Positions 9,856 to 10,072 of a stretch of DNA of 64,000 nt are shown in pieces. The notes under the pieces are model-generated. The model worked only from the letters and a program-made list of their open reading frames with translations. It had not been told where the DNA came from and did no database searches. The first letter of the stretch is position 1; every line of letters starts with the position of its first letter. Origin of the DNA: Planctomycetota bacterium (GTDB lineage: Bacteria; Planctomycetota; Phycisphaerae; Phycisphaerales; SM1A02); the NCBI GenBank assembly GCA_022574595.1, contig JACZRS010000002.1:186001-250000 (forward strand), read 5' to 3'. Position numbers and translations under genes: made by a program.

Positions 9856-9999
9856 TGGAGCCGATCGGGATCGAACCGACGACCTGTCGCCTGAGGCGAC
9901 CGCTCTCTTTAACTATTAAGTCCTAAGTGGAGCCGATCGGGATCGAACCGACGACCTGTCGCCTGAGGCGACCGCTCTCTTTAACTATTAAGTCCTAAG
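9856..9999 (-). repeat. two perfect 72-bp tandem tRNA-Ala-like units
   Basis: Units at 9856-9927 and 9928-9999 are identical and lie head to tail directly after the tRNA-Ala gene, with no spacer. Read on the minus strand, each unit's last 30 bases equal the variable loop, T arm, acceptor 3' strand and discriminator A of that tRNA. The GAGAGCG of the D-arm side is also kept. The anticodon arm is replaced by GTCGC-CTCAG-GCGAC, a five-base loop instead of seven. The 5' acceptor strand and the D stem are lost: the 5' part is A/T-rich and lacks the GG of the D loop. These are not functional tRNAs by any normal rule. Confidence 0.85.
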
Positions 10000-10072
10000 T
10001 GGAGCCGATCGGGATCGAACCGACGACCTCTTGCATGCCATGCAAGCGCTCTCCCAACTGAGCTACGGCCCC
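10000..10072 (-). tRNA. tRNA-Ala (anticodon GGC)
   Basis: A 73-base cloverleaf on the minus strand. The acceptor stem GGGGCCG pairs with CGGCTCC, with one G-U. The D arm has GCTC/GAGC, and the anticodon stem CTTGC/GCAAG closes the loop ATGGCAT with GGC in the middle. The T arm has the standard GTTCGATCC loop. The discriminator is A and CCA is not encoded. GGC reads the alanine codons GCC and GCU. No other tRNA is adjacent; the 136 bases upstream to the S9 peptidase end hold nothing else I can support. Confidence 0.97.

Follow-up and report, generated by a model that had tools for sequence, protein, structure and literature searches.

Described GIY-YIG genes and tRNA-derived repeats

The nearest known case is SegB of the T-even phages, a free-standing GIY-YIG homing endonuclease found at tRNA genes of many isotypes; it cuts within these genes and, through recombination, promotes the amplification of tRNA segments into tandem arrays (PMC13096335). 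The elements described here, typified by one on contig C27 of the present genome, beside tRNA-Pro(GGG), likewise have a GIY-YIG gene beside tRNAs of many isotypes. They differ from SegB in residing on Patescibacteria and Planctomycetota chromosomes, in their small size (80-105 aa), in their cutting being putative, and in being flanked by palindrome-bearing broken copies of the target tRNA. GIY-YIG insertions outside introns, most of them at stem-loops, have also been described in rRNA genes of CPR bacteria, in a report that makes no mention of tRNA (PMC11270868). As here, those GIY-YIG ORFs of CPR genomes lie in structured RNA genes outside introns (PMC11270868), but the present elements target tRNA, and one intact tRNA stays alongside.

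By sequence, the nearest solved structures to the proteins of these elements include small GIY-YIG proteins of the UPF0213 and SLX1-like kind. To our knowledge this is a domain family that has been described without any association with broken tRNA copies. Integrative elements that restore the 3′ half of a tRNA leave behind a direct repeat of its 3′ part (attL/attR), as is seen here, whereas the present units have no integrase and carry a replaced anticodon arm, and the element measures a few hundred bp or less. The tyrT repeats of Escherichia coli (rtT RNA) are 178-bp tandem units after a tRNA, each with 19 nt of the tRNA 3′ end. The present units share this tandem arrangement and the tRNA 3′ end in each unit, but tyrT units have no palindromic arm, and the only Rfam match here is to tRNA. 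We found no description of chromosomal GIY-YIG elements with tRNA remnants in the part of the open literature that our search covered.

Two tRNA-like units follow tRNA-Ala(GGC)

The window, which is the whole 64,000-nucleotide stretch that was analysed, contains a tRNA-Ala(GGC) with two identical 72-bp units directly behind it on the same minus strand, no spacer intervening (Table 1). This arrangement had been proposed in a sequence-only reading of the locus and is borne out by TRF (period 72 bp, 2.4 copies, 100% matches, 9856-10029) and by the sequence itself. ARAGORN and Rfam call a single tRNA, Ala(GGC), at 10072..9999/10000. Each unit has the formula CTTAGGACTTAATAGTTAAAGAGAGCG + GTCGCC-TCA-GGCGAC + AGGTCGTCGGTTCGATCCCGATCGGCTCCA, in which the last 30 nt, AGGTCGTCGGTTCGATCCCGATCGGCTCCA, are unchanged tRNA-Ala sequence that begins with the variable loop and ends with the discriminator base, as had also been claimed. 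The 17-nt anticodon arm CTTGCATGGCATGCAAG is swapped for the 15-nt palindromic arm GTCGCCTCAGGCGAC. This arm had been described as a five-pair stem with a CTCAG loop, but is better read as 6 bp closed by a TCA triloop, because other copies vary in the middle three bases and not in the six flanking pairs. The 5′ acceptor strand and the D stem had been described as gone; the acceptor 5′ strand is indeed absent, but a worn piece of the D arm survives in the first part of the unit, with AGTT...GAGAGCG recognisable and a weak D-arm match in the Rfam alignment.

Table 1. Features of the tRNA-Ala(GGC) locus in the window.
Feature	Position	Strand	Basis
tRNA-Ala(GGC), intact	10000..10072	-	ARAGORN; Rfam RF00005, 63.3 bits
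tRNA-like unit 1, 72 bp, beginning directly at the tRNA-Ala discriminator base	9928..9999	-	TRF; sequence
tRNA-like unit 2, 72 bp, identical to unit 1	9856..9927	-	TRF; sequence
Unit 1, D-arm remnant AGTTAAAGAGAGCG (tRNA counterpart AGTTGGGAGAGCG)	9973..9986	-	Sequence; weak Rfam D-arm match
Unit 1, palindromic substitute arm GTCGCC-TCA-GGCGAC, replacing CTTGCATGGCATGCAAG	9958..9972	-	
Unit 2, palindromic substitute arm	9886..9900	-	
Unit 1, exact tRNA-Ala copy, variable loop to discriminator	9928..9957	-	Sequence
Unit 2, exact tRNA-Ala copy, variable loop to discriminator	9856..9885	-	Sequence

The units do not qualify as functional tRNAs, having no acceptor 5′ strand and a tRNA score of 16.9 bits each against a cut-off of 29 bits. 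The Rfam scan of the window returned tRNA and no other family, group I intron RNA included, and membership in another known RNA family was rejected: the permuted-tmRNA matches scored 10-15 bits, far short of the cut-off of 47, and were dismissed. Another reading takes the units for functional tRNA-like RNAs, whether decoys, regulators or processing signals, excised from the tRNA-Ala transcript; it is favoured by the exact T arm, the identity of the copies, the maintained palindromic arm and a 233-nt transcript that folds more stably than shuffles (z -2.4). We regard it as very unlikely, given the absent acceptor stem, the low score, single units whose folding is on a par with that of shuffles (z -1.1 and -1.3), a copy identity that fits recent duplication, and the absence of the units in relatives.

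Site history and attachment-site use of tRNA-Ala

In same-family genomes (L011-L013) the tRNA-Ala beside the S9 peptidase gene has no units, and none follow tRNA-Ala in the other tRNA-Ala relatives read. Because these orthologous sites are empty, the simplest reading is that this lineage acquired the units, and their identity fits a recent tandem duplication.

Relatives use the same tRNA-Ala(GGC) as an attachment site, with copies of its 3′ half 1.5, 3.3 and 38.5 kb downstream. These copies (L024, L025 and L026/L027, in genomes G022, G031 and G009) have intact arms, and integrase-like ORFs are present in the first two. Such use lends some credit to the proposal that an integrative element with a tyrosine recombinase once used the 3′ half of tRNA-Ala and left the units as att-site relics. 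This possibility is nonetheless largely refuted, and we give it very little weight: the relatives' att copies keep the anticodon arm, which in the units is replaced by a palindrome common to other tRNA loci; the units lie 72 bp apart, leaving no room for an integrase gene between them; and no integrase occurs among the neighbouring ORFs. The proposal survives in spirit, as the scar of a mobile element, but not as an integrase att site. Elsewhere in this genome (G000:C2:37055-37121; L082), a tRNA 3′ half scoring 15.8 bits lies before tRNA-Tyr without a palindrome and resembles an ordinary att relic.

The same arm at other tRNA loci of this genome

The same arm recurs in remnants at other tRNA loci, and this is the main fact that the three interpretations offered by the sequence-only reading (att relic, decayed tRNA copy, processed RNA) missed. 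Two further loci of this genome, on C18 and C27, bear the arm in tRNA remnants, and exact matches to GTCGCCNNNGGCGACNGG in the genome all lie beside tRNAs, at the tRNA-Ala, C18 and C27 loci. On C18, tRNA-Pro(TGG) has upstream of it a defective 5′ copy that carries GTCGCC-TTA-GGCGAC. The C27 locus consists, in order, of three 108-bp pseudo-tRNA-Pro units, diverged from one another and carrying GTCGCC-TAA-GGCGAC, then tRNA-Pro(GGG), a GIY-YIG ORF, and the arm, here with a TGA loop, joined to a tRNA-Pro 3′ end. The ORF (L081 849..526, minus strand) is intact, with 107 codons and a PF01541 match of 2.7e-15, and the link to a GIY-YIG gene goes beyond what the earlier reading foresaw. Plain decay of a tRNA copy, which that reading had entertained, cannot explain why one new arm is shared by three loci of the genome and by other phyla.

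In a draft assembly of 31 contigs, the perfect identity of the two units could also reflect one real unit doubled by the assembler. This too is highly improbable, as tandem units of this kind occur independently at C27 (108 bp, diverged) and before a tRNA-Asn in another genome (L217; three units of 72 bp, slightly diverged). The TCA and TTA triloops also suggested suppressor tRNAs, an idea that was dropped, the middle triplet varying freely (CCG, GAC, GCG, GCA, TGT).

The arm across other genomes

The pattern GCGGTCGCCNNNGGCGACNGRTCG was scanned over 84,980 species and gave 56 loci, most of them coincidental matches to high-GC DNA with no tRNA close by. Twelve were tRNA remnants adjoining a tRNA or, at L114, a GIY-YIG ORF; L114 ends at a contig end, and its tRNA-Ala is visible in the longer locus L155. 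These remnants belong to Patescibacteria, Omnitrophota, Planctomycetota and one unclassified bacterium, and layouts like that of C27 recur at Pro, Val and Ala tRNAs in Patescibacteria, Omnitrophota and other Planctomycetota. A related GIY-YIG ORF is present in 7 of the 12, mostly separating the intact tRNA from the arm-bearing remnant, although at L133 the ORF follows the tRNA and the remnant lies on the opposite side. Arm-bearing remnants stand on both sides at L106, where the downstream one abuts the tRNA. All three Patescibacteria genomes with the arm pattern have a GIY-YIG ORF at the arm. L130, from a planctomycete, reproduces the layout of the window, with tRNA-Ala(GGC), an ORF-less unit bearing the same arm and a second, decayed unit; no such GIY-YIG ORF was found in its genome. 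The exact longer pattern was confined to the present genome among 392 sampled genomes of the phylum, a sample that lacked G003, which has it. Phage carriage was rejected: the one viral-contig match to the pattern fell in DNA that looks coding and has no tRNA, and two GIY-YIG relatives likewise lacked one.

More generally, pieces of the target tRNA flank the GIY-YIG ORF, often with palindromes, which are commonly 15-nt hairpins. At L174 the order is tRNA-Pro 1-37, the GIY-YIG ORF, a full tRNA-Pro and tRNA-Pro 37-75, while L159 holds tRNA-Glu pieces 1-38 and 58-78, and L167 tRNA-Gly pieces 1-56 and 55-75. Palindromes fill the breaks, which occur within loops of the tRNA; one example is TCCGCC-GCA-GGCGGA in the anticodon arm of the Asn lineage. 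At Pro, Ala and Val tRNAs, remnant arms located through tRNA anchors, with no palindrome required, proved palindromic all the same; variants among them are GCCGCC-GC-GGCGGC and ACCCGATGGCCATCGGGT, and L215 has the paired variant GCCGCC/GGCGGC. A 6-bp stem closed by a 3-nt loop occurred 58 times, against 4.2 expected in shuffles.

The 15-nt hairpins might instead be independent mobile or self-generating palindromes (REP-like, or produced by template switching) that land in tRNA pseudogenes, with the GIY-YIG gene a mere neighbour. Similar short palindromes do occur elsewhere in the genome, for example some 25 dispersed copies of GTCTCCATAGGCGAC / GTCGCCTATGGAGAC away from tRNAs, and stems differ among lineages. 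We consider this explanation unlikely, since the anticodon arm is replaced exactly by the palindromic one, and CC/GG-closed hairpins of this form are about 30-fold denser around tRNA+GIY loci (30 in 16 kb) than in flanks (7 in 117 kb).

GIY-YIG genes near tRNAs

A profile (A1) built from eight GIY-YIG proteins of arm loci was used to search whole genomes. All eight proteins match Pfam PF01541, the nearest solved structures by sequence being UPF0213 proteins (1zg2, 1ywl) and SLX1, and some match phage homing-endonuclease families weakly. The Tyr, Tyr-x-Gly, Arg and Glu positions conserved in the GIY-YIG family are invariant in A1, which, from what is generally known of the family, suggests that the proteins are active.

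Among 59 Patescibacteria genomes drawn evenly, 39 had a match at the cut-off of 1e-10 or better; of 301 genomes in the order of the window, 22 had a match. A tRNA lay within 400 bp of the ORF in 22 of 29 fetched Patescibacteria loci (nearly all within 150 bp, and of many isotypes) and in 14 of 25 loci of the window's order (mostly Asn, Pro or Ala), the other 11 having no nearby tRNA; these fractions are upper-end estimates, because the loci were the best-scoring ones and a few were profile seeds. Chance would give about 1.6 and 0.35 such loci, respectively, if 45 and 48 tRNAs per genome are assumed, and with these assumed counts the association exceeds chance at a binomial P of about 1e-20. 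In an 82-row tree built on few columns, the tRNA-Asn elements of Phycisphaerales group together, and the arm-bearing proteins do not form one clade.

A candidate mobile element targeting tRNA genes

The units are probably scars, devoid of an ORF, left by a small mobile element whose core is a free-standing GIY-YIG nuclease gene and whose targets are tRNA genes. The observations behind this reading are the shared arm, the GIY-YIG/tRNA association, the layouts and the empty orthologous sites. No trace of GIY-YIG was found in the window, where the copy has no ORF; what ties tRNA-Ala itself to the element is the shared arm. Cutting, homing, the role of the palindrome and the order of events are inferred. 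A full element, as at the C27 tRNA-Pro(GGG), comprises an intact tRNA and a GIY-YIG ORF of about 80-105 aa, beyond which lies a remnant of the same tRNA whose anticodon arm, or in other lineages a tRNA loop, has given way to a short palindrome. The nuclease would cut the tRNA gene, and recombinational repair would copy the element in, with one intact tRNA remaining beside the broken copies. The palindrome would disable these copies and perhaps make them uncuttable. Further breaks and repair between repeated tRNA parts could then delete the ORF or amplify remnants in tandem, and such amplification may have produced the two identical 72-bp units. Against this, the intact tRNA would itself seem to be cuttable too, the genome with L130 has units but no such GIY-YIG ORF, the arm-bearing proteins are not a single clade, and 11 of 25 loci in the order lack a tRNA nearby.

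There is perhaps an even chance that these loci represent a widespread and apparently undescribed class of minimal mobile element, in which a GIY-YIG gene of about 80-105 aa enters tRNA genes, in many cases at the anticodon loop, brings along or rebuilds an entire rescue copy of its target tRNA, and overwrites the broken halves with a defined palindrome of 6 bp and a triloop. It would then be a home-and-rescue element of natural origin, frequent in Patescibacteria and common to several phyla. The two odd repeats give a lead on a family of tiny tRNA parasites that may explain the many small GIY-YIG genes of Patescibacteria as well as odd tRNA pseudogenes clustering beside tRNAs. Should the rescue-tRNA reading hold, such elements would parallel, in nature, the engineered home-and-rescue drives, and they would give rise to false annotations of tRNAs and ORFs.

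Other observations

Mechanical ORFs run antisense to remnants at L023 (68..385, +) and L081 (280..534, +), with peptides such as DLSPQATALT, and arm scars may in this way become annotated as hypothetical proteins. On C18 (G000:C18 ~176920-177030; L089 907-1026), a minisatellite of 15-bp units, reading GAGCAGTCGAGGGTA/GAGCAGTCGAGGGAA on the tRNA strand, directly follows tRNA-Pro(TGG). Remnants of the 5′ part of tRNA-Leu at L168 and L175 carry CCTGCCTGCCGGCAGGCAGG in the D arm, a hairpin also seen in Val and Ala remnants at L108 and L132. In the unclassified bacterium of L110, the palindrome CGGTCGCCTTAGGCGACCG (~5062-5085, minus strand) lies just upstream of the apparent 5′ end of a 23S rRNA. 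Near the units in the window, an inverted repeat of 16 nt (9779-9832; 88% complementary) lies just past a 97-aa ORF without a Pfam match, and 8178-9269 on the plus strand encodes a 363-aa NHL-repeat protein with a C-terminal, dockerin-like duplicated repeat of the DxDxDG type.
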